A DNA stretch of 34,274 nucleotides from an uncultured Opitutia bacterium (GTDB taxonomy: Bacteria; Verrucomicrobiota; Verrucomicrobiia; Opitutales; Opitutaceae): the NCBI GenBank assembly GCA_903820035.1, contig CAIJFT010000163.1, positions 1 to 34,274 on the forward strand, given 5' to 3'. Shown in pieces: positions 2,309-17,588 of the stretch. Under the pieces are notes generated by a model. The model was not told the origin of the DNA and searched no databases. It saw nothing but the letters and a program-made list of their open reading frames with translations. Made by a program: the position numbers and the translations under genes. How positions within the stretch are numbered: position 1 is the first letter of the stretch; the number at the start of each line of letters is the position of its first letter.

Positions 2309-3664
2309 TCAGGCCGGCGGCGGCTGGTCGACGGGCGTACCCGCGGCGCGGAGACGCTGCAATTTGTAGGTCAGTGCGCGGCGGCTGATCGCGAGTTCCT
2401 TCGCGGTTTCGGTCCGGTTGTAATTATTTTTCCGCAGGGCCTTCAGGATCGCGTCGCGTTCGATCTCCTCGAGACGCTGGGCGTCGCCCGCGGGGGCGGT
2501 GACCGTCCCGGCGGTGGCGGCGAGGATCCGGGCGGGGAGATGCTCGGGCAGGACCACTTCGCCGCGCGACAGCAGCGCGGCGCGTTCCATCGCGTTGCGC
2601 AGTTCGCGGGCGTTGCCCGGCCAGCGGTAGTGCAGCAGTGCGCTGGCGACGGACGCGGCGAACCGCGGTTTCTGGCGCGAGAATTGGCCGATGAAATGGG
2701 TGGCGAGCGGCAGGATATCCTCCGGGCGTTCGCGCAACGGCGGGATGTGGAGCTCCATCACGTTGAGCCGGTAGAACAGGTCCTCGCGGAAGCGACCGGC
2801 CGCGATTTGCGCCTCCAGATCGTGGCTGGTCGAAGCGAGCACGCGGGCATCGGTGCGCAGTTCACGCGTGGTGCCGATGCGGCTGAAGGTCCCGTCGTTG
2901 ATGACGCGAAGCAGCTTGGCCTGTACGCCAGCGGGGAGTTCGCCGATCTCGTCAAGGTAGATGGTGCCGCCGGCGGCCGCCTCGAAGCGTCCGACCTTGC
3001 TCTCCGCGGCGCCCGGGAACGCGCCTTTTTCGTGGCCGAAGAGTTCGATCTCCAGCAGCGGTTCTGCGAGCGTCGCACACTCGACCCGCACCCACGGGGC
3101 GGCGGCGCGCCGACTCCAGGCGTGCACCACCCGGGCGACCACGTCCTTACCGACGCCGCTTTCTCCGGTGATGAGCACGCGGGTATCCGCCGGCGCGATT
3201 ACGGCCGCGTCACGAAAAACCGCCTGCATGAGCGGACTTTGGGCGATGACATCGGGAGGCAGCGGCGGCGTGGCGGCGGCGGTAGTGGCGGGGGCGGCGC
3301 CGGGCATCACGGCGAGTCTCACCGAGGTCATCAACTCATCCAGGTCGATGGGCTTCGCGAGGTAGTTGACGGCGCCATCGCGCATCGCCGTGACGGCGCT
3401 GCGGATGTCGGCAAAGGCGGTGACGAGCAATACGGGGAGGTTGGGGTGGGTCTGGCGCGCGCGCCGCAGCGTCTCCAGTCCGGACATACCCGGCATCCGC
3501 ACGTCGCTGATCATGAGGTCGAATGGGCCCCGGCTCAGCAACTGCAAGGCGGCCTCCCCCGAGGCGGCGGTTTCGGGTGCGAAGCCCTGTTTGCGCAGGA
3601 ACGACTCCAGGAGGTTCCGCTGGCCCGGGTCGTCGTCGACGATGAGGATGCGGGCGGTTTTCAC
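2309..3664 (-). CDS. NtrC-family response regulator with GAFPGA loop
   Basis: This 451-residue protein has the three NtrC-family modules. The receiver domain (1-120) has acidic pocket D10-D12, phosphoacceptor D54, T82 and K104. The AAA+ domain (about 140-380) has Walker A GESGVGKD at 167-174, Walker B with YLDEIGEL near 236-243 and arginine-finger candidates R293 and R299. A Fis-type helix-turn-helix lies at about 405-445. The sigma-54 contact loop reads GAFPGA (214-219) instead of the near-invariant GAFTGA, which casts doubt on ordinary sigma-54 activation. The GTG start overlaps the kinase stop codon (GTGA), so the two are translationally coupled. Targets are unknown; I saw no convincing -24/-12 promoter upstream of the kinase or the T2SS operon. 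Confidence 0.93.
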   Translation of the reverse strand: MKTARILIVDDDPGQRNLLESFLRKQGFAPETAASGEAALQLLSRGPFDLMISDVRMPGMSGLETLRRARQTHPNLPVLLVTAFADIRSAVTAMRDGAVNYLAKPIDLDELMTSVRLAVMPGAAPATTAAATPPLPPDVIAQSPLMQAVFRDAAVIAPADTRVLITGESGVGKDVVARVVHAWSRRAAAPWVRVECATLAEPLLEIELFGHEKGAFPGAAESKVGRFEAAAGGTIYLDEIGELPAGVQAKLLRVINDGTFSRIGTTRELRTDARVLASTSHDLEAQIAAGRFREDLFYRLNVMELHIPPLRERPEDILPLATHFIGQFSRQKPRFAASVASALLHYRWPGNARELRNAMERAALLSRGEVVLPEHLPARILAATAGTVTAPAGDAQRLEEIERDAILKALRKNNYNRTETAKELAISRRALTYKLQRLRAAGTPVDQPPPA

Positions 3665-5136
3665 GCGGTGGCCGGCGGAGGGGAGGAGACGACTCGCAGG
3701 TGGCTGAGCCGGAACAACGCGCCCCGCGGGTTGTTGCTCGTGCAGGTGATTTCCCAGCGGTGCGCGGCGACGATCTGGTGCACGATGGCGAGGCCGAGGC
3801 CGACGCCCTTCGGGCGCATTGTGACGTACGGTTTGAAAATGGCCTGACGCTCTCCGGGTGGAACGCCCGGGCCGTCGTCCGCGATCTCGAGCACGGCGCT
3901 GCCACCCGCGGTGGTTGACCAGCGGACGTCGATGTGGCCGCCCGGCGCGACGGCTTGGGCGGCATTGAGCAGCAGGTTGAACAGTGCCTGCCGGAGTAGC
4001 GGGGCGTCGGCCTCGATGGTCAGCGGGGCGGTCGCGAGGGTGAGTCGGAGCTGTTTCTCTTCGACGTCGGGTTGCAGGGTGCGGGCGACGTCTGCCGCGA
4101 GGGCGGCGAGTTCAACCGGGGCGGGGTGGGCTTCACGCGGCTTCGAGTAGTGGATGAACTCGTTCAGCTGGACGGTGACGCGGTCGGCTTCCTCGATGAT
4201 CCGGGCCGCATGGTCCTGCAGTTTGGCGGGTTCGTGGGAATCGAGCGCGATCATCTGGCCGAGGCCTCGAATCAGGTTGAGGGGGTTGCGCGTTTCGTGG
4301 GCGAGCCCGGCCGCGGCGAAATTCATTTCGCTCAGGTGCGTGTTCATTTCCCCGGCTTTGACGAGGCGGATTTGCAGGTCGGAGGTCTTCCGGACATTGC
4401 GCCACGCGAGGGCGGAGATCACCGCGGCACCCATGGCGAGCAGACTGACGAGGGCGCGGAGGAGCAGGTCGTTTTGCACGGCGCGCCGCAATTCGAGGGT
4501 CGAAAGCGAAATCACGAGGCTGTGCACGCCGCGCTTCTGAATGACGGATTCGTATTCCTCGCGGCTCATCCAGGACGGGCGGCTGAACGGGGATCGCGCG
4601 GTGTTTTCGCCGGCGGCTTCGCCGGTTTTGGTCGCCGGCATCTCCCCGGGGCGGCGGGTCGGACCCTGGCGGAAGGCGCGTGGGTCGGTGACGACGATGG
4701 TGGCGGGGGCGCGCGCGGGGTCCTCGGAGACGTTGGCCCCGAGATCCATCAGGTTCATCAGCGTGAGCGTGTGTTCCCGCCAGTAAACGCCGCGAGCCCG
4801 CAGCATTTCCGGGGTAATTTCAATGGCGGGCCCGGCGCTGGCGATGGTTTCGCCCGTGGCGCCGAGGATCGCGATGGCCTCGAGCTCACCGGGCCGGACG
4901 AGGTCTTGGAGCGTCGACTCAAGCCGGTCCTTGGAAACAATGCCGCCAAAGCGCCGCTGGGAGCGGACGACAACGCCGAGGGTCGAGGTGATGTCGCGAC
5001 CGCGATTGACGAGCACCTGGGTGGTGGAACGTTCAAAGCTCAGGTGTTCCGCGCGCTGCCAGCCCCCGACGGCGAGGACGGACGCGAGCAGGACCGCATA
5101 GATCCCGAAACTTCGATGGGCGGCCGGCCAGCGCAT
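3661..5136 (-). CDS. Membrane-bound sensor histidine kinase
   Basis: The 491-residue protein has transmembrane segments at about 11-27 and 226-246, which enclose a roughly 200-residue extracytoplasmic sensor region of no type I recognise. A HisKA domain follows with the phosphoacceptor in LAHETRNPLNLIRGLGQ (H280). The ATPase domain shows an N-box (FNLLLNAAQA, 386-395), G1 box DDGPGV (420-425) and G2 box KGVGLGLAIV (443-452). The H-box style and the NtrC-type partner fit the NtrB/PilS/AtoS group. It is a separate transcription unit from the T2SS operon, because a strong terminator and 185 bp or so of intergenic DNA, including a repeat, precede it. The signal sensed is unknown. Confidence 0.93.
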   Translation of the reverse strand: MRWPAAHRSFGIYAVLLASVLAVGGWQRAEHLSFERSTTQVLVNRGRDITSTLGVVVRSQRRFGGIVSKDRLESTLQDLVRPGELEAIAILGATGETIASAGPAIEITPEMLRARGVYWREHTLTLMNLMDLGANVSEDPARAPATIVVTDPRAFRQGPTRRPGEMPATKTGEAAGENTARSPFSRPSWMSREEYESVIQKRGVHSLVISLSTLELRRAVQNDLLLRALVSLLAMGAAVISALAWRNVRKTSDLQIRLVKAGEMNTHLSEMNFAAAGLAHETRNPLNLIRGLGQMIALDSHEPAKLQDHAARIIEEADRVTVQLNEFIHYSKPREAHPAPVELAALAADVARTLQPDVEEKQLRLTLATAPLTIEADAPLLRQALFNLLLNAAQAVAPGGHIDVRWSTTAGGSAVLEIADDGPGVPPGERQAIFKPYVTMRPKGVGLGLAIVHQIVAAHRWEITCTSNNPRGALFRLSHLRVVSSPPPATA

Positions 5137-5370: not shown

Positions 5371-6552
5371 TTACTTCTTCGTGCCGAGGTAGCGATCCAT
5401 ATCCTGAGGGAAGGCCTTCGGCGCGAGTTCGAGCCGGTTGCGTTCCGAGTCGGTCGTGCCCGACAGGGCATCCGGATTCGGCACGACGTGCGGGGTCAGG
5501 AAGATCAGGAGTTCGGTTTTCACGTCGGTCTTTTGCTTCCGCTTGAAGGCGTTGCCGAGGATCGGGATATCGCCGAGGATCGGGACCTTGCTTTCGCGGT
5601 CGGACGTCTGGGTGGAGATCAGTCCGCCGATGACGACGGTCTTGTCGCTGGGCGTGACGACGACGGTGTCGGCGGAACGCTTGTCGATGACCGGTGAGCT
5701 GACGGTGTTCGAGATCGGCACGGTGGTCGCGCTGAGCGACGAAATTTCCGGCGAGACGATCATTTCGACGAGGCCTTCCGCGGTGATGAATGGCGTCACG
5801 CGCAGAATGATACCGATGTCCTGATATTGGACGGTGTTGATGGTGGTGTTCGTCTGGTCGCTGACGCGCGAGTTGGTGATGATGGGGACCGATTGGCCGA
5901 CCATGATCGTGGCCTGCTGGTTGTTCCGGGTCAGGATGGACGGGCGGGACAAGATCTCGGTTTTGCTGACGGAGCTGAGGGCATGCAGGGTGGCGTTTAC
6001 GTCGCGGCCCAGTACCCGGTAGAACGTGCCAACCTGCGTGGGATCGTTGGCGGCATCGGCGAGGCCGAAGCGGGTTGAAACGCTGTCGCGGGCGCGGCCG
6101 CCGGGTTCCGCGTTGATCCCCACGCTGCCGGCGAGGGAAGCTTCCAGCCCGAGGTCGAGGCCCTTGTCGTGGGTGACTTGGACGAAGACGACGTTGATCA
6201 GCACCTGGGGCTTCGGCTTGTCGAGGCTTTGGACAATGGTGCGGATGTTTTCGTTGGTCTCGTCGTCGGTGACGATAATGAGGCGGCGCGTCTCGAGATC
6301 GCTCGTGATCACGGCGTCGCCGATCATGGTGGAATTGACGTACTGGCGGCTGCCGCCGCTGGAGCTACCACTACCGCCGCCACCCCCGCCGGAGGCCGTG
6401 GTCGGACGGGCCGCGCTAGAGGTCGGGGGCCGGCTCGCGGTGGAGCCGCCACGAGAGCCGGTGGTCTGGGCGAGGGCTTGGCCGGCTGCGAGCGCCAGTA
6501 GGGCGCAGGGGAGCAACCGGAACCGGGGCGAAGGGGAGAAATGCGTCTTCAT
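5371..6552 (-). CDS. gspD: Secretin C-terminal half (GspD barrel subunit)
   Basis: This 393-residue protein carries the membrane-embedded secretin domain of the T2SS outer-membrane channel. It has its own signal peptide (1-29, ending ALAQ). A Gly/Ser-rich linker (about 30-70) is followed by the second half only of an N-type domain (IGDAVITSDLETRRLIIVTD through about 113). The secretin domain follows (about 115-375), with ILRVTPFI, VVIGGLI and the signature VPILGDIPILG followed by TELLIFLTPHVV. The N0, N1, N2 and first half of N3 are in the preceding gene. The two genes are in the same frame, separated by one TAA and 12 sense codons, but the internal signal peptide argues for two mature proteins. 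It is the last gene of the operon. Confidence 0.93.
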   Translation of the reverse strand: MKTHFSPSPRFRLLPCALLALAAGQALAQTTGSRGGSTASRPPTSSAARPTTASGGGGGGSGSSSGGSRQYVNSTMIGDAVITSDLETRRLIIVTDDETNENIRTIVQSLDKPKPQVLINVVFVQVTHDKGLDLGLEASLAGSVGINAEPGGRARDSVSTRFGLADAANDPTQVGTFYRVLGRDVNATLHALSSVSKTEILSRPSILTRNNQQATIMVGQSVPIITNSRVSDQTNTTINTVQYQDIGIILRVTPFITAEGLVEMIVSPEISSLSATTVPISNTVSSPVIDKRSADTVVVTPSDKTVVIGGLISTQTSDRESKVPILGDIPILGNAFKRKQKTDVKTELLIFLTPHVVPNPDALSGTTDSERNRLELAPKAFPQDMDRYLGTKK

Positions 6553-6588
6553 GAATAGGTCGGATTGGAGGCGTACGCTGGGGTCGGG

Positions 6589-7836
6589 TTAGCGGCCGTT
6601 GCGCGAGCCCAGCGTGATGTTGGAGCTGGTGCTCTGGCTGTTGCTCGTGGCCCGCGTGGCGAGCGGGTCGACCTGCTGCGACGTACTCGCACGGCTGTTG
6701 CTGTTCTGGAAGAGATTCCGGAGGATGGCTTCCACCTGCTTTACGTCGCCGTTCTCCATCGTGTAGACGAAGACCTTTTGCTTGTGGGCCGTGTTGGCGT
6801 CGAGTTGGGAGACCATTTCACCGATATCGACGAGCGCCTCCTTGGAGGCGGTGACGATGACCGAGTAGGTGCGGGGATCCGCGACGGCGACAACCGGCGT
6901 GCCGCGGCTCGCGCCGCCCCCACCCCCACCCCCACCGCTGCGAGAGGTACGGCCTCCGGACGATGTGCGGCCCCCGCCACCACCGGTAGAACCGCCGCGG
7001 GCTGCGGCGATGGCCGCCGCTGCTCCGCCGGGGAATCCGCCGCCGCCGAACATGCCGGGGAAGCCGCCCGGAAAGCCGCCGCCGGTGCCGCCGCGGCCGC
7101 TGTTGGAACCGCCGGAGGAGCCGTAGAGGTTAGAGATCAACTGGGCCATTTCGCTCGGATCGGCGTTTTTCAGGCGGAACACCTTCATGGCTGAGACCGA
7201 GCCGGACGAGCCGTCGAGGGCGGAGATCAACTCCACGATGTGGCGGATATTGCTCTGGGTGTCGGTGACGATGATGGAATTGCTGTCGGCGTTCGCGGTG
7301 ACCGTCGCGCTGCTCGGCAGGAGCGTGGCGAGGTCGGCGGCGGCCTGACTGGCGTCGATGCGTTCCAGCGGGATGATCTGCATGACCATCTCGGCGTTGT
7401 CCGGGATTTGTCGCGGATCGTTGCCGGTGTGGATCGGGATGTTCTTCTTCCGCGCCTCCTCCTTGGAGCTCACGATGAGGTTCCGGCCCTTTAACGTGGC
7501 GGTGTAGCCGTTTTTATTGAGGGCGATGTTGAGGAGTTGGACGGCTTCCTGGCGGCTGATCGGCTGGGCGCTCCACATGTCGATGGCGCCGCCACGGACC
7601 GGGGTCTCCAGGATGATCACGTAGCCGGCGGCCTCGCTCAGGTAGTTCAGGACGGTTTCGAGTGGGGCGCCGCGGAAGTTAAACCGCAGAGAGCCGGGTT
7701 GTTCGCGGCCGGTCCGGCCGGGGGCATCGGCGGAGGGGGCGGTCGCGGCCGGGGCGGCGGCGTCCTGCGCCTGCGCGCCGAAGGCGAAGAGGGTAAGACC
7801 GAGGCAGAGGGTCGGGGTGGTGAACTTCGTTTTCAT
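6589..7836 (-). CDS. Secretin N-terminal half (GspD N0-N3 periplasmic subunit)
   Basis: This 415-residue exported protein has a signal peptide (1-23, AQAQ). N0 spans about 48-131 (FNFRGAPLETVLNYLSEAAG). N1 spans about 148-209 (NADSNSIIVTDTQSNIRHIV). N2 spans about 217-347 and is interrupted by a Gly-rich loop (240-311). The first half of N3 follows (VFVYTMENGDVKQVEAILR, from 355). It ends in a Ser/Asn-rich tail without the second half of N3 or the secretin barrel, both of which are encoded by the next gene. A normal GspD of 650-750 residues would roughly equal the two combined. The start overlaps the preceding stop by one base (TAATG). It presumably forms the periplasmic vestibule of the channel; how it stays attached to the barrel protein is not evident. 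Confidence 0.9.
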   Translation of the reverse strand: MKTKFTTPTLCLGLTLFAFGAQAQDAAAPAATAPSADAPGRTGREQPGSLRFNFRGAPLETVLNYLSEAAGYVIILETPVRGGAIDMWSAQPISRQEAVQLLNIALNKNGYTATLKGRNLIVSSKEEARKKNIPIHTGNDPRQIPDNAEMVMQIIPLERIDASQAAADLATLLPSSATVTANADSNSIIVTDTQSNIRHIVELISALDGSSGSVSAMKVFRLKNADPSEMAQLISNLYGSSGGSNSGRGGTGGGFPGGFPGMFGGGGFPGGAAAAIAAARGGSTGGGGGRTSSGGRTSRSGGGGGGGGASRGTPVVAVADPRTYSVIVTASKEALVDIGEMVSQLDANTAHKQKVFVYTMENGDVKQVEAILRNLFQNSNSRASTSQQVDPLATRATSNSQSTSSNITLGSRNGR

Positions 7837-8450
7837 TACTTTAATTGTTTCTCGCGTTTCTGGAGGAGCCGCTTGAGCACTTCGGAGGTCTCGGCGGACG
7901 GGGCGGAATCGGTGGCGCCGGCGGTGGGCAAGGCGATGGTGGCGGTGGGGACGTTGGTGAAAGGGTTGGACGGCGAGGGCTGTACGGACCAGTCGCCCCC
8001 TTCGGGCCGGCTGAGCTGCTCGGAGAGTCGCAGGGTGAGCGGCTTGTCTGCCTGCAGGAGCTCCACGCGGTCGGCCGTGATGCGCTGGATCTTGAATTCG
8101 GCGATAGTATCCCCCTCGTGCAGCGCTTTGGTGTAGCGGGAGTCGGGGCTGTTGAAGAACGCGAGCAGTCCCTTCTCGTACTGCATCGTGCCGACCAGTG
8201 CGATTTCGTCGGTGCGGACGGCCTTGGCGTCGGACCCTTCGCGCGTGCGGCCAACCCGGTTCGGGTTGAAGATATTACGTTCAACGACGAGTTGGAATAC
8301 GGCGAAGCCTTGGGCGGGGGCGACGGTCTTGGAGGGGGCCGGCGTGACCGGAGTGGACGGGCGGCGGCGGTCGTCGGCGGCGGACGCGAGCGTCGCGGCG
8401 AGAACGGAGCCGGCGGCCGCGAGGAGGCAAAGGTGGCGGGCGCGGATCAT
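7836..8450 (-). CDS. GspC/PilP-like periplasmic connector
   Basis: The 204-residue protein has an N-terminal hydrophobic stretch ending LASAAD that looks like a cleavable signal peptide rather than a membrane anchor. The core begins FQLVVERNIFNPNR, the pattern that opens the homology region of GspC and resembles PilP. It continues with a small beta domain (VGTMQYEKGLLAFFNS...ALHEGDTIAEFKIQRI...RVELLQ). There is no PDZ domain and no lipobox. By position and homology it should link the inner-membrane platform (L/M) to the secretin N0 domain. The start overlaps the upstream stop (ATGA). I call it GspC-like; PilP-like is equally fair. Confidence 0.75.
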   Translation of the reverse strand: MIRARHLCLLAAAGSVLAATLASAADDRRRPSTPVTPAPSKTVAPAQGFAVFQLVVERNIFNPNRVGRTREGSDAKAVRTDEIALVGTMQYEKGLLAFFNSPDSRYTKALHEGDTIAEFKIQRITADRVELLQADKPLTLRLSEQLSRPEGGDWSVQPSPSNPFTNVPTATIALPTAGATDSAPSAETSEVLKRLLQKREKQLK

Positions 8451-8995
8451 TGTCTTCCTTCGAGGGGGGTGAGGCGCAGGCCGCTGACGAGCAGCCCGAG
8501 CGTGAGTTTCTGGCCGTTATCGTCGCGGGCCATGAGTTCGACGGAATCGACGCGCAGCGCGAGGGGAGACTTCTCCACCTCGTAAAGGAAGCGGCTCAGC
8601 GTGGACAAGGTCCCCGTGGCATCCACGCGGCATTCGAGCTGCGAATAGCGGTTGGTGGCGCCGCGCTTCCACTGCGGCTTGATCGAGCCGAGTTCGACGT
8701 TGTTGGCGCGGCCCCAGCGGTCGAAGGCGGTGATGAGGTCCTGTTCGGACTTGGCGGGGTCTTTGGGCAGAGCCTGCGATTGCATCTCGGCCCACTTCGC
8801 GCGGGTGCTGGTGGCGCGGGCGATCACCCCGCGGCCCTCGGTCACGTTCTTCTGCAGCTTCGTGATCTCGGCGCTGCGGGTCTGCCAGGCTTTCGACAGC
8901 GGCGTGAGCACGACGCTGTCGAGGATCAGCACGCCGATGGCGACGCCGGCCAGGATCAGCAGCATTTGCTGGCGGTTGGACGGATTGATTTTCAT
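8447..8995 (-). CDS. GspM/PilO-like inner-membrane assembly protein
   Basis: I place the start at the ATG at 8995, giving 182 residues. It forms an ATGA overlap with the preceding stop, and residues upstream of it would lie in another frame of the gspL gene. One membrane span (about 11-30, MLLILAGVAIGVLILDSVVL) is followed by a coiled-coil stretch with KLQKNVTEGRG, then a small alpha/beta domain ending in SVELMARDDNGQKLTLGLLVSGLRL. This is the architecture of GspM and PilO, bitopic proteins that pair with GspL/PilN. Sequence similarity within this family is low, so the call rests on topology and position between L and C. Confidence 0.78.
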   Translation of the reverse strand: MKINPSNRQQMLLILAGVAIGVLILDSVVLTPLSKAWQTRSAEITKLQKNVTEGRGVIARATSTRAKWAEMQSQALPKDPAKSEQDLITAFDRWGRANNVELGSIKPQWKRGATNRYSQLECRVDATGTLSTLSRFLYEVEKSPLALRVDSVELMARDDNGQKLTLGLLVSGLRLTPLEGRQ

Positions 8996-10395
8996 TTGCC
9001 GGTGTTTCCGACCCAGCGGAAGGTGAAGGTGAACTGCGCCGGCGTTTTGCCGCGGATCTGTTCGATCTTGAGCCCCTGGACTTCCTTGGCTTGGCGCAAC
9101 TGGTCGAGCGTCCGCAACAGCGAGGCGTTGTCGCGCGCGGTGCCGGTGACGCTGACATTCGCGGGGCCGTGGATCTCGAAGGATTTGGCGCTCACGCTGC
9201 CGTTGTCGGGGAAGCACTCCACGACGCGTTTCATGATCGTGAGGTTGCGGTACGACTCATCGTACCAGGGACGGAATTCACGGATGCTGCCCTGGATACC
9301 CTCCAGTTCCGTGACGTCGGCGGCCATCGCCTCCCATTCGGAGCGGAGCGACCAGCGGCGGAACTCCTGCCAGCCGAAGGCACCGAGCGTCACGAGGACG
9401 ACGGCGGCGGCGGCGAACCCGGCACTGGCGAGGCGGCGGGAGTTGTAGCGGGCGAGCAACAAGGCCCACCGGGAGGGCCGGGGTGGTAGAAATTCGAGGT
9501 CGCGTTTCGCTTCGAGCAGGTGGCGTTGCGCGAGCTGCTCGACGATTTCTTCTGCGGCCGGCCGGGGGGCCGCGGCGCCGTGGTCGAGGCTGAGTCCGGC
9601 GTCGCGCGTCCAGGCGCCCAAGATACCGGCGAGCTGGGCGACCATGGACGGCTCCCCGCGCAAGGCGAGTTCCCGGACCTCGGCGCGGAGGTCGGCGGGC
9701 AGCTGTTCGAAGCTGATGCGCAGCTCGCGGGCGAGGGCGGGACCGTTGATCACGTTTTCCCCGACTTCGGAATCGATCGTGGCTTCCAGCGTGCGCAGCG
9801 TGACGATACCGCCGCCGGCGGCGACCAGCAGCGTGGCGCCCTTGGGCTCCAACAGCAGCGTCATACGACTGGCACCGGTCGTGGGCAGTGCGCCCGGCAG
9901 GGCGGTGATCCCGATCGTATAACTGACGGCCTTCAGCCCCGCGGCTTTCAGTACTTCGCCGAGGCGGTTGAGTTGCTCGTGGCGGACGGCGAGTTGGGTG
10001 ACGTACGGCGCCTCGCCCGAGCGATGAGCGGAGCGGGCGATTTGCAACTCGTCGGGATTACAGGGGAAGCCCTTCTCGGCTTCGATGAGCAGCAGGCTGG
10101 CGGTGTCTTCCGGGGACAGCTCCGGCACGCGGGTGTGCTGGGTCATGACCCAGTCTGCGGGCAGGGCGACGACGCAGTGCCGCTCACGGATGCCGCAGGT
10201 GTCCAGGTGGTTTTTGATTTCCTGGCCGACGAGTTCGGGCTCTGGATGCTGCAGATCAAGCGTCAGCGTGGCCCCGGCGGCGTGCAGCACGGCGACCGCG
10301 TTTTTCGCGCGGGCGGCGTGGGCGACGCGGAGCTGGCCGTGGACGACCGAGATCGCGATCACGGATTGCAGGCGTTTTTTGGCGACCCACTTCAT
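8992..10395 (-). CDS. GspL-like protein (PilM-like plus PilN-like)
   Basis: The start chosen is the ATG at 10395 (467 residues), which overlaps the gspK stop as ATGA. Residues 1-300 form a cytoplasmic actin-like domain of the GspL/PilM type (for example HCVVALPADWVMTQHTRVPELSPEDTASL shortened here to HCVVALPADWV). A single membrane span lies at 324-341. The periplasmic part has a coiled segment and a ferredoxin-like PilN domain (SFEIHGPANVSVTGTA...LRTLDQLRQAKEVQGLKIEQI). In the T2SS, GspL recruits the GspE ATPase and pairs with GspM. Confidence in the role is high from architecture and operon order. Confidence 0.85.
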   Translation of the reverse strand: MKWVAKKRLQSVIAISVVHGQLRVAHAARAKNAVAVLHAAGATLTLDLQHPEPELVGQEIKNHLDTCGIRERHCVVALPADWVMTQHTRVPELSPEDTASLLLIEAEKGFPCNPDELQIARSAHRSGEAPYVTQLAVRHEQLNRLGEVLKAAGLKAVSYTIGITALPGALPTTGASRMTLLLEPKGATLLVAAGGGIVTLRTLEATIDSEVGENVINGPALARELRISFEQLPADLRAEVRELALRGEPSMVAQLAGILGAWTRDAGLSLDHGAAAPRPAAEEIVEQLAQRHLLEAKRDLEFLPPRPSRWALLLARYNSRRLASAGFAAAAVVLVTLGAFGWQEFRRWSLRSEWEAMAADVTELEGIQGSIREFRPWYDESYRNLTIMKRVVECFPDNGSVSAKSFEIHGPANVSVTGTARDNASLLRTLDQLRQAKEVQGLKIEQIRGKTPAQFTFTFRWVGNTGK

Positions 10396-11729
10396 GCGCG
10401 GGTCTCCTTCGCGTTCCGGAGTGTCTGCCGGACTTGGGTCCCCAGGGCCCAGCCATAGCTGGACAAGTCCTGATGGTAAATGGTGCGGGGTGTTCCTAGG
10501 GTCATGTCGAAAATGGTGCGGGCACGGCAATAGCCGCGGCCGGCGCGGCCCACGGCGGCGACGTCGGCGGTGAATTGATACGATTGGTCGGTCAGGTACG
10601 GGCCGGCGCGCGTGATGTCGCTGCGGCTGAGGACCTGAGTGATCCAGCTGAACGAGCCGCGGACATCCGGATTGGCGAGGCGGTAGGCGACCAGGGCGGA
10701 GGCGTTTTCGGGGCCGATTCCGGGAATGCAGGCGAGGACGGTTTCACTCGCGGTGTTCACGTTGATCAGGCCTTGGACGGTTGTGCCGTCACTCGCGGTG
10801 ATGTCGCCGCGAACCGAGTTGAACTCGTCGGACGTCATCCGGCTGGCGGCCATGAACTCCGCGACGCTCCGAAACTCCGTCGTGCCGATGGCGCCGATGA
10901 TTTCGGTGGCGCGCGGTCCGCCGATGCGCTGCTGGAGAATCTGATTCAGCTGCTGGCGGTTCTGCGGCGTCGTGATGTTGATCCGCCGGCCGCCGCCGGT
11001 CCGCGTGTTGGGCTGGCGGCTATAGACGGTCACGTACTCGAGGATACCGGGCTGAATCAGACCGTCGGAGTTGTCGCGGGGGGCGGAGGCGTCGCCGTCG
11101 TTCTCGTTGTCATCGAGCGCGCCATTGCGGTTTGTGTCTTCGCCGAAGAGGAGGTCGAGGGTGGCACCGTAAACCAGGCGCAGCTCGTCGACCGATTCAA
11201 AGGGGCCGCCCTTATTGGTCCGAGCCGGCTCGAGCCGGCCGTAGGTGGTGTCACCGCCGCCGGCCTGCGCGCGGGAGCGCCAGGCGACGATCCCGTCGAG
11301 GAGCTCGGGGGTCATGCCCGGCAGGGCCTCGAGCATGGTGCGCGGGGCGGTGTTCAGGTTGATCTTCGAGGCTTCGTCGACGAGGCCGAAGATCGGCTCT
11401 GTGGTCGGGCGCTGGTCGTTGTCGCGACCGATGAACCAGAACTTCGCTTCGCCGACCGGCAGCTCTTCGGCCTTGTAATCTTCACGGTAGGGCACGGTGC
11501 CGTTGGTGGCGAACTGGCCGAGGACGTATGATGCGTAGCGCGTCCCGGCCAACATCGCCTGACGCGCTGCAATGTCGGCGGCGCGGTTGTCGGCGGCCCG
11601 AAACTCCGAGGTCATCGAGTCGGCGAAATACACCGTGAGGGCCACGAGGCCCAGGCAGACCCACATGACGATGATCAGCACGGACCCGCGGCGGGGCGCG
11701 GCCAAGGTTTGGGCGGCGTGGCGTTTCAC
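10392..11729 (-). CDS. gspK: GspK minor pseudopilin
   Basis: The GTG start at 11729 overlaps the gspJ stop (GTGA) and gives 445 residues; longer in-frame sequence upstream is a shadow of gspJ. The prepilin leader ends PRRG, followed by SVLIIVMWVCLGLVALTVYF. It lacks Glu at +5, as is usual for GspK. Two helix-hairpin-helix-like stretches are visible (INLNTAPRTMLEALPGMTP and INVNTASETVLACIPGIGP), typical of the large GspK globular domain, which caps the pseudopilus tip with GspI and GspJ. An acidic insert (EDTNRNGALDDNENDGD) could bind calcium. Confidence 0.9.
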   Translation of the reverse strand: MKRHAAQTLAAPRRGSVLIIVMWVCLGLVALTVYFADSMTSEFRAADNRAADIAARQAMLAGTRYASYVLGQFATNGTVPYREDYKAEELPVGEAKFWFIGRDNDQRPTTEPIFGLVDEASKINLNTAPRTMLEALPGMTPELLDGIVAWRSRAQAGGGDTTYGRLEPARTNKGGPFESVDELRLVYGATLDLLFGEDTNRNGALDDNENDGDASAPRDNSDGLIQPGILEYVTVYSRQPNTRTGGGRRINITTPQNRQQLNQILQQRIGGPRATEIIGAIGTTEFRSVAEFMAASRMTSDEFNSVRGDITASDGTTVQGLINVNTASETVLACIPGIGPENASALVAYRLANPDVRGSFSWITQVLSRSDITRAGPYLTDQSYQFTADVAAVGRAGRGYCRARTIFDMTLGTPRTIYHQDLSSYGWALGTQVRQTLRNAKETRA

Positions 11730-12433
11730 GGGGCGGCCTCCGCTTCTTCCTGCTGGGTGGTCGTGGTCTTTACCAGCACGGGCACGATCAAATCGAGCGG
11801 GGTTCCGGCCGATTGATTGGGAGCCGCCGCGGTGCGCGTGATGGTCAGGCGCAGCGCGGTGGGCAGGGTCGACGAGGTCTCGGAGTCCCACATGTCGATC
11901 CAGCCGGAGCCGTCGTAGAACATCATGCTGGCCGACTCGACGTCGCTCATCAGGACCTGTGGATCGGCCTGCACATCCTGCACGGGCAGGAGATTGCGGG
12001 TGACGACGCGGACGAGGTCCTTGCCGTTGCCGGTGGTCGACGGCGAAAGGTAGTAGGCCACCATCTGCACCTCGGAGAACGGATTCCACCCGTCGATGCG
12101 GCCGGAGTTGGTGAAGATGTCCGGCGTCACGCGGTCGCCGTAATTACCCGAGCTCAGACTTGAGAAATTACTGGTCTGCAACTGTCCGGACAGCGTGCCG
12201 CCGGGCAGCATGATGCCCGCGAGGTCGCGGCGAATGATGCCGAGCGTGCGCTGGACCACGGCGTCCTCGTCGATCCGCGCGTGCGTGGTGTTGTGCAGGC
12301 GGAGCGCGCCGAAAAAGGTCGTCTGGATGACAATCAGCACCACCGCACCGACCGCGGTGGCGATCAGAAGCTCGAGCAGCGTGAAACCGCGCGAATGGCG
12401 GACGCCGGCGAAGGTGGAGCGGGGACGCCTCAT
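11726..12433 (-). CDS. gspJ: GspJ minor pseudopilin
   Basis: This 235-residue protein has a basic leader ending SRG and the class III signal FTLLELLIATAVGAVVLIVI, with Gly at -1, Phe at +1 and Glu at +5. The globular part begins RLHNTTHARIDEDAVVQRTLGIIRRDL, which matches the GspJ pattern. Its product should join GspI and GspK at the pseudopilus tip. The ATG start overlaps the gspI stop as ATGA, and its own stop overlaps gspK. Confidence 0.87.
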   Translation of the reverse strand: MRRPRSTFAGVRHSRGFTLLELLIATAVGAVVLIVIQTTFFGALRLHNTTHARIDEDAVVQRTLGIIRRDLAGIMLPGGTLSGQLQTSNFSSLSSGNYGDRVTPDIFTNSGRIDGWNPFSEVQMVAYYLSPSTTGNGKDLVRVVTRNLLPVQDVQADPQVLMSDVESASMMFYDGSGWIDMWDSETSSTLPTALRLTITRTAAAPNQSAGTPLDLIVPVLVKTTTTQQEEAEAAP

Positions 12434-12903
12434 GGTGCGAGTCCGGTATCCACCGCGGTCGAGCCGGCGGGGGTGATCAGCGTGGTGGCGCTGACGTCGT
12501 AAAGATTACCCTGAACGGTGAACTGCACGGTCACGGTCAGTTGCTGCATTGCGTCCTCGGGCCAGTTTTCGAGGCGCATCGTCCAAGGGTAGGCCATGTC
12601 CCCCTCGAGGGCGGTGCCGCTGGATGAGCCCTGCTGCGTCTGGGCTTCCGCGATGATTTCTTCGATCATGCGTTCGGCGACGCGCATCGCGACGGCTTTG
12701 CGTTGGCCAAGCACGCCGACGCGGCTGGAAACGCTCAGACCCTCCATGGTCACGGGAATGACGATCGCCATCATCAGCAGCGCGGCGAGCACCTCCACGA
12801 GCGTGAAGGCGCGGCGGGAGCCGGTGGCGATCCGTGACGGGCGACGTCCCAACGCGCCCGGGCGGGCCGGGTCAGTTGGTGCGGGTCGCGGGGCGGATCT
12901 CAT
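12430..12903 (-). CDS. gspI: GspI minor pseudopilin
   Basis: I choose the ATG at 12903 (157 residues), which overlaps gspH by 32 bp and gives a rather long leader of about 34 residues. A TTG at 12852 would give a shorter, more typical leader. The processing site reads SRRA followed by FTLVEVLAALLMMAIVIPV, so Ala rather than Gly sits at -1; Glu is at +5. The motif RVAERMIEEIIAEAQ and the short length fit GspI, which nucleates the pseudopilus tip. Confidence 0.85.
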   Translation of the reverse strand: MRSAPRPAPTDPARPGALGRRPSRIATGSRRAFTLVEVLAALLMMAIVIPVTMEGLSVSSRVGVLGQRKAVAMRVAERMIEEIIAEAQTQQGSSSGTALEGDMAYPWTMRLENWPEDAMQQLTVTVQFTVQGNLYDVSATTLITPAGSTAVDTGLAP

Positions 12904-13426
12904 AACTGAGCCGATTGAGGGTGGGCGCGATTTCGAGGGCGCCTTCATCCCCTTGGCGGATGATGATTTTACCGACGCTCGACTCGTCGAAGAAGCCGTC
13001 GGCGTTGAAGCGGATCGCCGGCAGATTTTCGGGCAGGCCGAGACGTTCGTCCTCCTGTTCGGAGGCGGGTGCGTCCGTGGCCGCGGGCACTTCAAAACGG
13101 AGTGACGGTTCGGCGGTGAACACGTCCTGGCGTTCGCTTTCGCCGGTGTGGCCGGCCTGGACCATCAGGCCGTAGGTTGAGCGCGTGGGGTCGACCCACA
13201 GCAGCACCGGTACGCCTTCGGCGATCGCCCGGCTGCGGCCGTAGTTGAGCAGCGAGAGCATGCGGCGCGCCTCGGAGCTGAGGGCGCGCCCGCGGAAGAA
13301 CGACGACATGCGCGGCGCCACCATCGAGGCCACGATGAGCAACAGCACCATCACCACAATCAGCTCCACCAAGGTGAAGCCGCGGTTGCGGCGGCGCTGA
13401 TGGGTGCTGGAGCCCGGCAGGGTCAT
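12872..13426 (-). CDS. gspH: GspH minor pseudopilin
   Basis: The 184-residue protein has a leader ending RNRG and the signal FTLVELIVVMVLLLIVASMV, with canonical Gly -1 and Glu +5. The following segment (SSEARRMLSLLNYGRSRAIAEGVPVLLWVD) is typical of GspH/FimT pseudopilins, in which the helix leads into a beta-rich domain. It lies between gspG (36-bp gap) and gspI (overlapping). GspH links the major GspG shaft to the I-J-K tip. Confidence 0.88.
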   Translation of the reverse strand: MTLPGSSTHQRRRNRGFTLVELIVVMVLLLIVASMVAPRMSSFFRGRALSSEARRMLSLLNYGRSRAIAEGVPVLLWVDPTRSTYGLMVQAGHTGESERQDVFTAEPSLRFEVPAATDAPASEQEDERLGLPENLPAIRFNADGFFDESSVGKIIIRQGDEGALEIAPTLNRLSYEIRPATRTN

Positions 13427-13462: not shown

Positions 13463-13951
13463 TTAGCGCGACGAAATGCGGGCGTTGATGATGTCGTCGT
13501 TGGTGCCGGCCTGACCGTCGGGACCCATCGAGCGGATGTCGTAGCCGGAGGGGTTCACCTTGCCGGGGAACTCGTAGACGTAGGGGTGCCCCCAGGGATC
13601 GAGCGGGATGTCGCTCTTCAGGTACGGCCCGCGCCAGTTGGTGACGTCGGACGGCTGCATGATGAGCTGGCTCAGGCCGTCGTTGCCGCGCGGGTAGCTG
13701 CCGGTGTCGACCTCATACGCGTCGAGTGCGGTGCCGAAGGTGGAAATCTGCGTTTGCGCCGCGGTGGTGCGGGCTTGTTCGGTACGGCCGGTGAACTTCG
13801 GCAGCACGAGGGCGGCGAGGATGCCCAGGATGACGAGCACCAGGAGCAGTTCGACGAGCGTGAACGCGGCCTGGGCGCGGCGGCGAAGGACGCGTTCGCG
13901 GCGGGAGGGAAGGAGCGGACGGGGATTCAGGGCTTTCATGGAGAAAATCAT
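13463..13951 (-). CDS. gspG: GspG major pseudopilin
   Basis: The start at 13951 overlaps the gspF stop (ATGA); a second ATG at 13939 is possible. The processing site reads AQAA followed by FTLVELLLVLVILGILAALVLP, with Ala at -1 and Glu at +5. The globular part has all the GspG marks: the YPRGNDGLSQLI loop, LDPWGHPYVYEFPG, and the calcium-binding loop GPDGQAGTNDDI. It forms the shaft of the pseudopilus. As in GspI, the Ala at -1 requires a prepilin peptidase that tolerates it. Confidence 0.95.
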   Translation of the reverse strand: MIFSMKALNPRPLLPSRRERVLRRRAQAAFTLVELLLVLVILGILAALVLPKFTGRTEQARTTAAQTQISTFGTALDAYEVDTGSYPRGNDGLSQLIMQPSDVTNWRGPYLKSDIPLDPWGHPYVYEFPGKVNPSGYDIRSMGPDGQAGTNDDIINARISSR

Positions 13952-15192
13952 TTGATGTGGTCCTGCAGGGAGAAAATCGGGATGACCATGCCGATGAAGA
14001 TGGTGCCGACGAGGGCCGCGATGAGGAACAGCATCAGCGGTTCGGCGAGCGCGACGACCGTCTTCAGCTGCCGGTCGAGGTCGCCTTCGGTGACGTTGGC
14101 AATGCGCAGCAATTCGCCGTCGAGTTTGCCGCTTTCCTCCGCGACCGAAATCATCTCGACGATGGCGCCGGGGAAGAGGTCGCGGTTTTGCGCCAGGCTC
14201 TTGCCGAGGGCCTTGCCCTCCTTCACGCGGTCGATCGAATCGGAAACGGCATCGACAAGGATCTGGTTGCCGATGGAGCGTCGGGCGACGTTGAGCGCGC
14301 TGATCAGCGGTACGCCGGCGCCCAGCAGGGTGCCGAGCATGCGGCAGAACCGCGCCATGGCGAACTGCGCGAGCAGCGGACCGAGCGTCGGGGCCTTGAG
14401 GATCATTCCTTCCCAGGAGCGACGCCCCTTGGCGGACTTGAACCAGTTGCGCAGGGAAATGAAACCGATGGCCGCCGCCGCGCCGATGAACAAACCGTAG
14501 CTGCGGACCGCCTCGGAGATGCCGACGATCACCTGCGTGAGCAGCGGCAACTCGGCGTTGAAGCCTTGAAACACGAGCTGGAAGCGCGGGATAAAGAACA
14601 CCAGCAGGAAGATCAGCACGCCCATGGCGAGGATCAGAAGGATCATCGGGTACATGAGCGCGGTCATGACCTTGCCCTGTAGTTCTTTTTCGCGCGCCTG
14701 GAAGTCCGCGATCTGTCCGAGCACGACGTCGAGGAAGCCGCCGGTCTCACCGGCTTCGACCATCGCCACGTAAACCCGAGGGAAGGTCTCGGGCGAGCGC
14801 GCCATCGCGTCGGAGAGCGGCATGCCGTCGATCACCAGGTCGTGGATCTCCTTCCACTTATCCTTCGCGACCGGATCCGCCGCCTCGCGATGGATGATCA
14901 CCAGCGCGCGGCTGAATGGTACGCCGGCCGCCAGCAGGCTGGACAGCAGGCGCGTGAAATTCTCCAGCATTCGGGGCGTGATCTTCTTGGCGCCGCCCAG
15001 ACGGAAATTGAGGGCGCCTTTCTTTTCCCCGCCCGCGGCGGGCGCGGCGGCGCCCTTGGTCTCGGCGAGGCGGATCGGTTTCAAACCGCGACCCTCGACC
15101 TGGCGCATCGCCTCCTGGCGGTTGCTGGCGTCGATGAGACCCTCGACGGAAATGCCGTCGAGCTGCAGGGCTTTGTATGCGAATTGGGGCAT
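13948..15192 (-). CDS. gspF: GspF inner-membrane platform protein
   Basis: The 414-residue length is usual for GspF. An N-terminal segment (AYKALQLDGISVEGLIDASNRQEAMRQVEGRG) is followed by two T2SSF repeats. The first has FTRLLSSLLAAGVPFSRAL and the second FCRMLGTLLGAGVPLISAL. Three membrane spans are visible, ending with LMLFLIAALVGTIFIGMVIPIF. It anchors the GspE ATPase and the assembling pseudopilus. It lies 30 bp downstream of gspE and overlaps gspG. Confidence 0.95.
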   Translation of the reverse strand: MPQFAYKALQLDGISVEGLIDASNRQEAMRQVEGRGLKPIRLAETKGAAAPAAGGEKKGALNFRLGGAKKITPRMLENFTRLLSSLLAAGVPFSRALVIIHREAADPVAKDKWKEIHDLVIDGMPLSDAMARSPETFPRVYVAMVEAGETGGFLDVVLGQIADFQAREKELQGKVMTALMYPMILLILAMGVLIFLLVFFIPRFQLVFQGFNAELPLLTQVIVGISEAVRSYGLFIGAAAAIGFISLRNWFKSAKGRRSWEGMILKAPTLGPLLAQFAMARFCRMLGTLLGAGVPLISALNVARRSIGNQILVDAVSDSIDRVKEGKALGKSLAQNRDLFPGAIVEMISVAEESGKLDGELLRIANVTEGDLDRQLKTVVALAEPLMLFLIAALVGTIFIGMVIPIFSLQDHIK

Positions 15193-15222: not shown

Positions 15223-16965
15223 TTAGTGCCCGGCCGCCGGATACGGCGCGGTGGAGGCAACCGAGGGCGTCATCTCGTGCACGGTCGTGACGCTCAACAC
15301 TTCCTCCATCGTCGTGACACCTTCCTCGACGAGGCGCCGGCCGTCGTCGGCGAGCGTCGTCATGCCCGCCCGGCAGGCGGCCTCGCGGATGACGTCGGTC
15401 GAGGCGCTGCGCAGGATCAGCTGGCGGATCTCGTTGCTGCTGTCCATCCACTCGAAAATGGCGCGGCGGCCGTGGAAGCCGGTGTTACGGCATTCGCGGC
15501 AACCGACGGAGCGGTAAATCGTGGCGTCGGGGCGGATGCCGAGGCGCGTGCGGTAGGTCTGCGCGGTGGGCGAGTTATCCACTTGTTTGCACTGCTTGCA
15601 GAGCACGCGCACGAGACGCTGGGCGAGCACGGCCTCGAGGGAGGACGCGACGAGGTAGGGTTCGACGCCCATGTCGACGAGCCGCGTCAATGCGCCGGCG
15701 GCGTCGTTGGTGTGCAGGGTGGAGAAGACCAAGTGACCGGTCAGCGAGGCCTGCACGGCGATCTGCGCGGTTTCCTGGTCGCGGATTTCACCGATGTGGA
15801 TGACGTCGGGGTCGTGGCGCAAAATCGAGCGCAGGCCGCGGGCGAAGGTCAGGCCCGATTTCTCGGAAACCTGGATCTGGTTGACGCCCTTGAGCTGGTA
15901 TTCGACCGGGTCCTCGATGGTGACGATCTTGCGCTCGGCGTCGTTGATCTCGTGGAGCGCGGTGTAGAGGGTGGAGGTCTTGCCGGAGCCGGTCGGGCCG
16001 GTGACGAGCACGATGCCGTGCGGCAACTGGAGCACGCGTTCGAGGCAGGAGAGTTCGCGGGCGTTCATGCCGAGCTCGCGCGCGCCCTTGAGCGATGAAT
16101 TCTGGCGCAACAAGCGCATGACCACGGCCTCGCCGTGCAGCATCGGGATGATGGAAACGCGGATGTCGACCTCGTTGGTCTCGATCCGGACCTTGATGCG
16201 GCCGTCCTGCGGCAGGCGCTTCTCGGCAATGTTGAGATGACTGAGGATCTTGACGCGCGCCACGATGGCGGGCTGGAAGCGCTTGATCTGCGCCGGCACC
16301 GGCACCTCCTGCAGCACACCGTCGATACGGTAGCGGATGCGGAGCTCGTCTTCGAACGGCTCCAAATGGATGTCCGAGGCGCGCAGCTCGATCGCGTCCT
16401 TCAGGACTTGGTTGACGAAGCGGATGATCGACGCGTCCTCGGCCGCTTCGTCGAGGTTGTTGCCACCGGCACCGCCACCTTCGTCGACGACCTGCAACGC
16501 CGTCTCCTCGTCGAGGGTGTCGATCGTATCGGCACCGACGCCCAGCCGCTTCTTCATCTCGCGCTGGATGACCTCTGAAGGCGCGAGCACGGGGCGGAGC
16601 CGCAGGCCGGTGAGGGCCTTGAGTCCGTCGATACCCTGGGTGGCGAACAGGCGGCTGGTCGCAATTTCGATCTGATTGTCGATACGCCGGAGCGGCAGCA
16701 GCTCGTCCCGCAGCAGCAGTCGGGCCGGGAAGAGCGACAGCACCTGCTTGTCCGGCTCCAACTCGTCGAGCTTGGCAAAGCCCACGCCGTATTCGCGGGC
16801 CAGCCACCGGAGCACGGCTTCCTCCGTGAGGGCGTCGGACCCGGTGTTCTGGCGGAGATAACTGCGCGCGTCGGTCGCCGTCAGCTGCTTGCCCGCAATC
16901 ATGCGGGTCAGCAGCTCGGGGAAGGCAACGTCGGCGCCGGAGGCGGGGGCGAGATCAGTGAGCAC
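15223..16965 (-). CDS. gspE: GspE secretion ATPase
   Basis: This 580-residue protein starts at a GTG, 11 bp after the preceding gene. The N-terminal GspE/MshEN domain covers about 1-150. The catalytic core carries Walker A GPTGSGKT (323-330), an Asp box (TIEDPVEY, about 349-356), Walker B within DPDVIHIGEIRD (385-396) and a His box (HLVFSTLHTND, 411-421). The zinc-binding tetracysteine (C456, C459, C489, C492) distinguishes GspE/PilB from retraction ATPases. It powers pseudopilus assembly from the cytoplasmic face. The protein is complete with every catalytic box intact. Confidence 0.96.
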   Translation of the reverse strand: MLTDLAPASGADVAFPELLTRMIAGKQLTATDARSYLRQNTGSDALTEEAVLRWLAREYGVGFAKLDELEPDKQVLSLFPARLLLRDELLPLRRIDNQIEIATSRLFATQGIDGLKALTGLRLRPVLAPSEVIQREMKKRLGVGADTIDTLDEETALQVVDEGGGAGGNNLDEAAEDASIIRFVNQVLKDAIELRASDIHLEPFEDELRIRYRIDGVLQEVPVPAQIKRFQPAIVARVKILSHLNIAEKRLPQDGRIKVRIETNEVDIRVSIIPMLHGEAVVMRLLRQNSSLKGARELGMNARELSCLERVLQLPHGIVLVTGPTGSGKTSTLYTALHEINDAERKIVTIEDPVEYQLKGVNQIQVSEKSGLTFARGLRSILRHDPDVIHIGEIRDQETAQIAVQASLTGHLVFSTLHTNDAAGALTRLVDMGVEPYLVASSLEAVLAQRLVRVLCKQCKQVDNSPTAQTYRTRLGIRPDATIYRSVGCRECRNTGFHGRRAIFEWMDSSNEIRQLILRSASTDVIREAACRAGMTTLADDGRRLVEEGVTTMEEVLSVTTVHEMTPSVASTAPYPAAGH

Positions 16966-16976
16966 GGGCGGGTAAA

Positions 16977-17588
16977 TCAGGGCAGCAGACCAAACATGAC
17001 GGCGACGGCTTCCTGGCGGACGCTGAGGACGGCGCGTAATTCATCCTGGGCTTTGGCGAGGTTGGCTTCGTTGGCCTTGCGGGCTTCCCGGAGACGATCC
17101 AGGCGCATCTTGATCTCAGCGTCGGGCAGCTTGTCGCGCAGCGCGGAGGAAAGGAGTTCCATCTCCGGCGGGCCGCCGCCGCGCGTGCCCCGGCTGCTGG
17201 TGCGGTCGCCGCCGCCGCCGGCGCCACCCGGAGGGGGACCACCGCGGCCACCGAAGGCCATGCCCCCGCCACTCGCGCGACGGAGTTCGGATACTTTCAT
17301 GACGCGGGTCGAAATCAGCTTCCACTCCTCGTCGTCGGGTACCTCTAGCCGCTCGCGGATGGAGCTCAGCATGCGGGCCTGCATTTCTGCCGGATCAAAA
17401 TTCCCGCGACCGCCGCCGCCCTGCCCGGTGGTATCGCCACCGCGGCGCCGGCCACCGGAAGTGTCAGGGGTGTTTTGCGCGAAAACGGTCGCTGCAAGGC
17501 CCAAGCCGGCGCTAAAGATCAAAAGGGCAAGACGCGGGGAACGGGCCGACAGGGCCGGCCGGACAGCAGACAGCATTGAAGTTTTCAT
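16977..17588 (-). CDS. Exported Gly-rich protein of unknown function, first T2SS operon gene
   Basis: This 203-residue protein is not from a family I can name. A signal peptide (about 1-38, ending VFAQ) is followed by a Gly/Arg-rich stretch. Two helical segments (SSIRERLEVPDDEEWKLIS and LRDKLPDAEIKMRLDRLREA) flank a second Gly-rich loop. The C-terminus, DELRAVLSVRQEAVAVMFGLLP, recalls the repeat-like LTxxQ ends of Spy/CpxP-type periplasmic helical proteins, but this is only a resemblance. It is the promoter-proximal gene, 11 bp before gspE. It could be a periplasmic accessory factor of the secretion system; this is inference from position. Confidence 0.7.
   Translation of the reverse strand: MKTSMLSAVRPALSARSPRLALLIFSAGLGLAATVFAQNTPDTSGGRRRGGDTTGQGGGGRGNFDPAEMQARMLSSIRERLEVPDDEEWKLISTRVMKVSELRRASGGGMAFGGRGGPPPGGAGGGGDRTSSRGTRGGGPPEMELLSSALRDKLPDAEIKMRLDRLREARKANEANLAKAQDELRAVLSVRQEAVAVMFGLLP

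Follow-up and report, generated by a model that had tools for sequence, protein, structure and literature searches.

A T2SS secretin gene divided within the N3 domain

The pore gene of the type II secretion system (T2SS), which encodes the secretin GspD, is cut in two inside one folded domain across a large group of Verrucomicrobiota. We describe this for a contig of an uncultured Opitutia bacterium (GenBank: CAIJFT010000163.1; the whole stretch of 34,274 nucleotides (nt) is hereinafter the window), where the halves are encoded by two adjacent genes, D1 and D2. Secretins are treated as one-chain ring proteins. The reading that we regard as probable is a two-chain GspD that arose by fission in a loop of the N3 domain, has persisted in a large Verrucomicrobiota clade ever since its common ancestor, and would have N3 completed in trans. 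The features of the pair are as follows (lengths in amino acids, aa; AF2, AlphaFold2):

6589..7836, minus strand: D1 (gspD-N), 415 aa; signal peptide, N0, N1, N2 with a Gly-rich loop, first half of N3, Ser/Asn-rich tail
6697..6786, minus strand: N3 strand 1 and helix 1 of D1, residues about 351-380 (AF2 strand 354-359, helix 365-379)
6592..6696, minus strand: C-terminal tail of D1, residues 381-415, Ser/Asn/Thr-rich; a short L-x-x-R type motif is present in most relatives
6589..6591, minus strand: stop codon TAA of D1, followed by 36 nt (12 sense codons) up to the start of D2 in the same frame
5371..6552, minus strand: D2 (gspD-C), 393 aa; signal peptide, Gly/Ser linker, second half of N3, secretin barrel
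6466..6552, minus strand: predicted signal peptide of D2, residues 1-29 (crude test; cleavage site placed by eye)
6346..6465, minus strand: Gly/Ser/Thr-rich linker of D2, residues about 30-69
6220..6315, minus strand: N3 strands 2-3 and helix 2 of D2, residues 80-111
5482..5982, minus strand: secretin barrel core (PF00263), D2 residues 191-357

In Pfam searches, D1 residues 52-120 matched the GspD N0 domain (PF21305, 39.3 bits, above cut-off), and D1 gave two further Secretin_N matches, with PF03958 at 87.1 bits, above cut-off. D2 matched the barrel family PF00263 at 169 bits and, at an E-value of 0.01, no other domain, BON included. TIGR02517 was the best NCBIfam match for both halves, D1 spanning model positions 1-295 and D2 positions 247-596, with each below the equivalog cut-off of 351 bits (165.5 and 250.9 bits, respectively). 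The Sec signal peptide of D1 was recognized by eye. The initial annotation had read the first gene as signal peptide-N0-N1-N2-half N3 with a Ser/Asn-rich tail, and the second as signal peptide, Gly/Ser linker, other half of N3 and barrel; both readings are borne out by the Pfam and NCBIfam matches and by alignment to GspD/PulD, as is the shared frame, with one TAA and 12 sense codons in between, by the window sequence itself. The observation of a GspD halved over two adjacent genes is thus confirmed.

Alignment with solved GspD/PulD structures shows that D1 ends after strand 1-helix 1 of N3 and that the folded part of D2 begins before strand 2, which supports placing the cut in the loop between helix 1 and strand 2. 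In terms of PulD (PDB: 6hcg), helix 1 ends near residue 286 and strand 2 starts near 307-309; according to the available text of the Klebsiella PulD study, the loop 288-303 was not built in the structure, and N3 carries constriction sites in the channel (PMC6882859; we read the numbering of the paper as the chain numbering). Three more secretins are encoded in the source genome, each a single chain in the part that was read: a PilQ-like protein (L153), an Amuc_1098-type protein that scores below the cut-off of that model and is cut on its 5′ side by the end of the locus (L154), and a GspD-like paralog forming one chain over TIGR02517 1-596 (L155). By eye, the last of these bears a long insertion in the same N3 loop as the split site. 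The proposal of the initial annotation, that the fission fell in a loop that is variable in one-chain secretins, gains support from the PulD loop, from this insertion and from two N2-loop cuts described below.

Conservation of the split across Verrucomicrobiota

A D2 search of 38 genomes (the source genome included; 25 of one genus) recovered close homologs with 59-100% identity in 18 genomes of that genus, and all 18 are split. Wider searches used a profile built from the D2 alignment against overlapping genome sets of the family, order, class and phylum, with the best 4 or best 7 candidates per genome above set E-values being scored. Matches were obtained in 50 of 252 family genomes, 49 of the split type and one not (G373, 9.9e-43); the order set (273 genomes, E-value 1e-60) gave four matches, all within the family; 69 of 384 class genomes had matches, 62 of the split type, including 5 in the family; and 16 of 387 phylum genomes had matches, which added four split-type genomes outside the class. 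Altogether, the split-type secretin is found in 110 distinct genomes: 49 in the family, 57 elsewhere in the class and four elsewhere in the phylum. Gene structure was read in each, and D1 and D2 are separate open frames in 110/110. A single-chain gene of this secretin type was found in none of the 110 genomes, nor among the high-scoring profile matches; it counts against our reading that, with scoring confined to the top 4 or 7 candidates of each genome, a divergent one-chain member could be missed. Seemingly continuous long open frames (G008, G010, G553 and others) were rejected as out-of-frame overlaps. Among 62 loci on named contigs, the split type occurs in Opitutaceae, Opitutia, Pedosphaera and Verrucomicrobiales records, and one locus, from Omnitrophota (L148), is a single-chain secretin of another type.

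After removal of identical proteins, 122 distinct loci with sequence upstream of the barrel gene could be tested (L135, which starts too near the barrel gene, was left out), and the split is present in all of them. The relative frame of D1 and D2 is 0, 1 or 2 in 36, 42 and 44 of these, against about 41 in a shared frame expected at random; accordingly, the shared frame in the window is coincidental. D1 ends in TAA, TGA or TAG across the loci, and the gap from its stop to the D2 ATG lies within -30 to 70 nt in 118/122, the outliers being 131, 135 (195 from a later start), 335 and 805 nt. In the two widest cases (L067, 335 nt; L076, 805 nt), no clear gene was seen by eye between D1 and D2.

D2 passed a crude signal-peptide test in 122/122 loci, as opposed to 96/374 internal-Met controls, a comparison that favors D2 in that it was allowed any Met within the first 70 residues and each control a single Met. 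Both half-domains are strongly conserved in sequence. The L-x-x-R type motif of the D1 tail recurs in 105/122 loci, compared with 18 after shuffling of the tails. The D2 head has a Y-x-N-x-T-x-x-G-x-A type motif in 82/122, and shuffled heads have it in none; both motifs were composed from the same data and compared with one shuffle each. Shine-Dalgarno-like sites 5′ of D2 (19/122 versus 51/610 random positions) give a weak signal that we do not use as support. The initial annotation had proposed a search of related genomes for the same split with conserved signal peptides and had named a continuous gene in close relatives, or a sequencing error at the TAA at 6589-6591, as grounds for doubt. 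The split was found throughout, no continuous gene was seen in the 110 genomes, and conservation together with the differing frames excludes an error at the TAA. Its argument from the complete signal peptide of D2 against a simple nonsense mutation fits the crude test, which D2 passes throughout; with only 36/122 split loci in a shared frame, nonsense mutation and sequencing error are excluded.

A second cut in N2 and the phylogeny of split secretins

A scan of chain number over 122 distinct loci gave 117 two-chain, two three-chain and three truncated cases. In the three-chain loci, L130 (1585-3333, plus strand) and L185 (518-2344, plus strand), which come from two distant relatives, the N chain itself is divided into two genes: the first codes for signal peptide-N0-N1-first half of N2, and the second for its own signal peptide, a Gly/Ser stretch, and the second half of N2 through the first half of N3 (signal peptides recognized by eye). 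The L130 pieces align to residues 74-298 and 300-559 of a two-chain relative, and the added stop and signal peptide therefore fall within the Gly-rich loop of N2. Both N2 cuts lie at the loop that corresponds to the one cut in N3, each with a new signal peptide, and would yield three-chain secretins. Both loci are contigs of metagenome-assembled genomes, taken here without read support; they stand apart on the FastTree tree, so that two changes are needed (support of intervening nodes 69-99).

In a tree with 23 single-chain and six giant single-chain secretins, the 49 split barrels, retained after dropping 33 that were at least 80% identical to a kept row, form one branch with support 100/99; an earlier quick tree with 82 split and 23 single-chain sequences agrees. 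As the split set was chosen by similarity, through its score to the profile, the single branch is partly so by construction, and the absence of single-chain genes among the high-scoring matches is the stronger point. One-chain secretins are the rule in other systems. Taken with the single branch, this means that the split is most simply explained by one ancient fission.

The open frames of the giant single-chain secretins reach about 4000 aa and encode a long tandem series of Secretin_N domains before a single C-terminal barrel. The one at L157 (1039-13152, minus strand) has 38 Secretin_N matches in Pfam and an N0-like match below cut-off, and others are present at L156, L158, L159, L160 and L162, these being the six of 19 whose architecture was looked at. 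A giant-secretin match (open frame of at least 984 aa; the one of 984 aa starts at a contig end) was obtained in 19/384 class genomes, 16 of which also have the split T2SS secretin. If stacked as rings, these proteins would make a very long tube.

Structure prediction for N3

An AF2 read-through model (821 aa; 56 alignment rows picked by hand from 81 loci) had a predicted local distance difference test (pLDDT) score of 67 and a predicted template modeling (pTM) score of 0.45. Its N3 elements lie at 354-359 and 365-379 in chain 1 and at 508-513, 518-523 and 525-538 in chain 2, with a low-confidence stretch in between: in chain 1, strand 1 and helix 1 are the sole N3 elements and a low-confidence tail follows them; chain 2 is limited to strands 2-3 and helix 2. 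A complete last domain in each chain, which the initial annotation had named as contrary evidence, is hence not what AF2 predicts. A construct of N3 alone (203 aa) was modeled with a second alignment of 76 rows (of 81 loci, 22 did not pass the motif rule and 4 were excluded manually), giving pLDDT 63.5 and pTM 0.41. The blocks of both halves reach pLDDT of about 75-92, mostly 82-91 in the N3-only construct. DSSP assigned only four strands in the 203-residue model, 9-14 from D1 and 156-160, 163-168 and 173-178 from D2; with all other strands in D2, we infer, from the assignment rather than from measured coordinates, that the D1 strand must pair with D2. These models suggest that a joint N3 built from both chains is likely.

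Several results weigh against this. Both pTM scores are low (0.41-0.45), the read-through model joins the halves covalently, which favors their meeting, and the full model aligns with PulD over 812 columns only at a root-mean-square deviation (rmsd) of 18.6 Å. No Foldseek match to the 203-residue model reached an E-value of 0.001. Most of the N-domain matches span 32-39 columns, about as much as a single half (ranges not given); the two longer ones among the listed secretins, of 51 and 54 columns, superpose at 10-12 Å rmsd. By match length and rmsd, then, the joint fold is not supported by Foldseek. The claim of the initial annotation that the two chains rebuild N3 accordingly stands in part: AF2 completes N3 in neither chain, and the joint fold itself is inferred from strand assignment, with Foldseek unsupportive.

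Alternative explanations

The window by itself, with two genes in one frame separated by a stop and 12 sense codons, could be taken for a pseudogene, the product of a nonsense mutation, frameshift or assembly error, or a gene whose TAA is occasionally read through to give the full protein. We give this practically no credence: the same split recurs in 122/122 loci with all three relative frames and all three stop codons, and D2 passes the crude signal-peptide test in every one. Read-through cannot yield one chain in the 86/122 loci with different frames, and nonsense mutation, frameshift and read-through were rejected on the frame distribution. It is also very improbable that the pair is a chimera, D1 being the relic of one secretin and D2 recruited from another system, even though the RhcC1/RhcC2 secretin of the rhizobial type III secretion system (T3SS) arose that way, going by the available text (PMC3459982). 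Both halves have TIGR02517 as their best match, their ranges of 1-295 and 247-596 meet inside N3, and each supplies the N3 elements that the other lacks.

A two-chain secretin without a shared N3 deserves more weight, although we hold it to be unlikely. The chains would then form separate stacked rings in contact through GspC and ring stacking, and the half-domains would be disordered or completed by neighbors of the same chain. The failure of Foldseek to bridge the two halves of the N3 construct fits this, as do the long flexible Gly/Ser-rich stretches at both cut ends. Set against it are the strong conservation of both half-domains, their block pLDDT of about 82-91 when together, the assignment of D1 strand 1 as a strand while the remaining strands of the model are all in D2, and the fact that neither chain holds its missing elements. 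Completion of N3 in trans thus remains the reading that we prefer.

Operon and genomic surroundings

D1 and D2 form the end of a T2SS operon (gspE to gspM-like, gspC-like, D1, D2), and the operon type is thus T2SS and not the T3SS cluster of rhizobial RhcC1/RhcC2. The TAA of the GspC-like gene overlaps the ATG of D1 (TAATG). The upstream genes are as follows:

7836..8450, minus strand: GspC-like protein (weak match, NF041515, 23.4 bits against a cut-off of 150)
8447..9217, minus strand: GspM/PilO-like protein (below curated cut-offs; true start probably within the frame)
8992..10530, minus strand: GspL/PilM-like protein (weak match, below curated cut-offs; syntenic in relatives)
10392..11732, minus strand: GspK (Pfam, above cut-off)
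11726..12433, minus strand: GspJ (Pfam, above cut-off)
12430..13095, minus strand: GspI (below cut-off; start probably within the frame)
12872..13426, minus strand: GspH (Pfam, above cut-off)
13463..13951, minus strand: GspG, major pseudopilin (Pfam, above cut-off)
13948..15192, minus strand: GspF (Pfam, above cut-off)
15223..16965, minus strand: GspE ATPase (Pfam, above cut-off)

The gene order up to D1-D2 is conserved in three distant loci: L223 and L224, which belong to a single genus of the window's class, and L225, from outside the class. The L225 stretch ends before GspE/F, and the GspE of L223 is cut by the end of its stretch; GspM had no match in any of the three. Directly 3′ of D2 on the same strand (2309-5136) lie genes for a histidine kinase and an NtrC-like sigma-54 activator, possible regulators of the T2SS, with no match to either in the fetched stretches of these three loci. 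Directly upstream of gspE (16977-17588) is a gene for a Gly/Arg-rich, apparently exported protein of 203 aa without a Pfam match. PADLOC gave no matches.

Comparison with known secretins

The pair resembles GspD/PulD/XcpQ (TIGR02517; PDB: 6hcg, 5wq7, 5wln, 6i1x) in its N0-N1-N2-N3-barrel order, its operon partners and the N3 loop at the cut, and differs in having two polypeptides with two signal peptides, cut within N3, where the known proteins have one of each. It shows N0 and Secretin_N domains, a barrel, an operon with GspE, F, G, H, J and K and a Sec signal peptide as in GspD, and departs from it in lacking a single chain at the TIGR02517 equivalog cut-off.

Divided secretins have already been described for the rhizobial T3SS and for mitochondrial T2SS-like systems. 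RhcC1/RhcC2, a split secretin with two origins (PMC3574062; PMC3973906; PMC3459982; PMC4500985), likewise has two genes for one secretin, an N-part and a pore part; however, it belongs to a T3SS, its genes lie apart, RhcC1 comprises the first N-domain, and RhcC2 is of Tad origin and bears a BON domain; the arrangement is a partial replacement rather than an intradomain fission. In the one stretch of pNGR234a examined for RhcC1/RhcC2, no secretin gene was listed. In jakobids, heteroloboseans and others, the mitochondrial T2SS-like secretin consists of GspD and GspDN1-3; GspDN2 and GspDN3 correspond to N-domain halves that could not be assigned to particular N domains, and contact of GspD with GspDN1 was seen by yeast two-hybrid (PMC8134430). 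Here too GspD is spread over several proteins, half N-domains included, but the system is eukaryotic, strongly diverged and without an operon pair bearing Sec signal peptides, whereas that of the window is a bacterial operon. Among components of type IV filaments, the TadB/TadC platform proteins offer another ancient, lineage-retained fission, in which, according to the accessible text, an inner-membrane protein was cut where its two duplicated domains meet (PMC6668835; PMC10191384). The literature matches listed, from a search mostly outside subscription papers, included no split bacterial T2SS secretin and no split secretin in Verrucomicrobiota; the available part of a Verrucomicrobia genome paper mentions GspD and notes no split (PMC8636102).

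Proposed mechanism and implications

We propose that a single-chain T2SS secretin was split in the N3 loop, between helix 1 and strand 2, with each half then being exported through its own Sec signal peptide. D2 would probably build the outer-membrane barrel ring, and D1 would form the periplasmic vestibule (N0-N1-N2) that meets GspC. N3 would be completed in trans, with strand 1-helix 1 from D1 and strands 2-3-helix 2 from D2, and the Ser/Gly-rich flexible free ends would come to lie inside the channel, at the place of the N3 loop of one-chain secretins. A broader and, taken whole, rather doubtful extension is that secretin N domains have a natural cut site in their alpha1-beta2 loop, used at least three times (once in N3 in the ancestor of the clade and twice in N2) with a signal peptide added each time. 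The pore might then be a hetero-subunit ring, which with 15-fold symmetry would comprise 30 or 45 chains, and trans-completed domains would hold it together; dozens of Gly/Ser-rich ends might serve as a flexible gate in the channel; and the D1 vestibule may dock on or leave the D2 barrel as an exchangeable part.

The points at which the fold can be interrupted are revealed by an intradomain fission that has become fixed in a clade wider than a single class and has recurred in another domain. Both halves in the window score below the GspD equivalog cut-off, so annotation pipelines may record too few T2SS in Verrucomicrobiota. The split also bears on how mitochondrial T2SS-like secretins came into pieces, half N-domains included, and, with the secretin in two natural parts, the order of assembly of the barrel and the periplasmic rings becomes testable.
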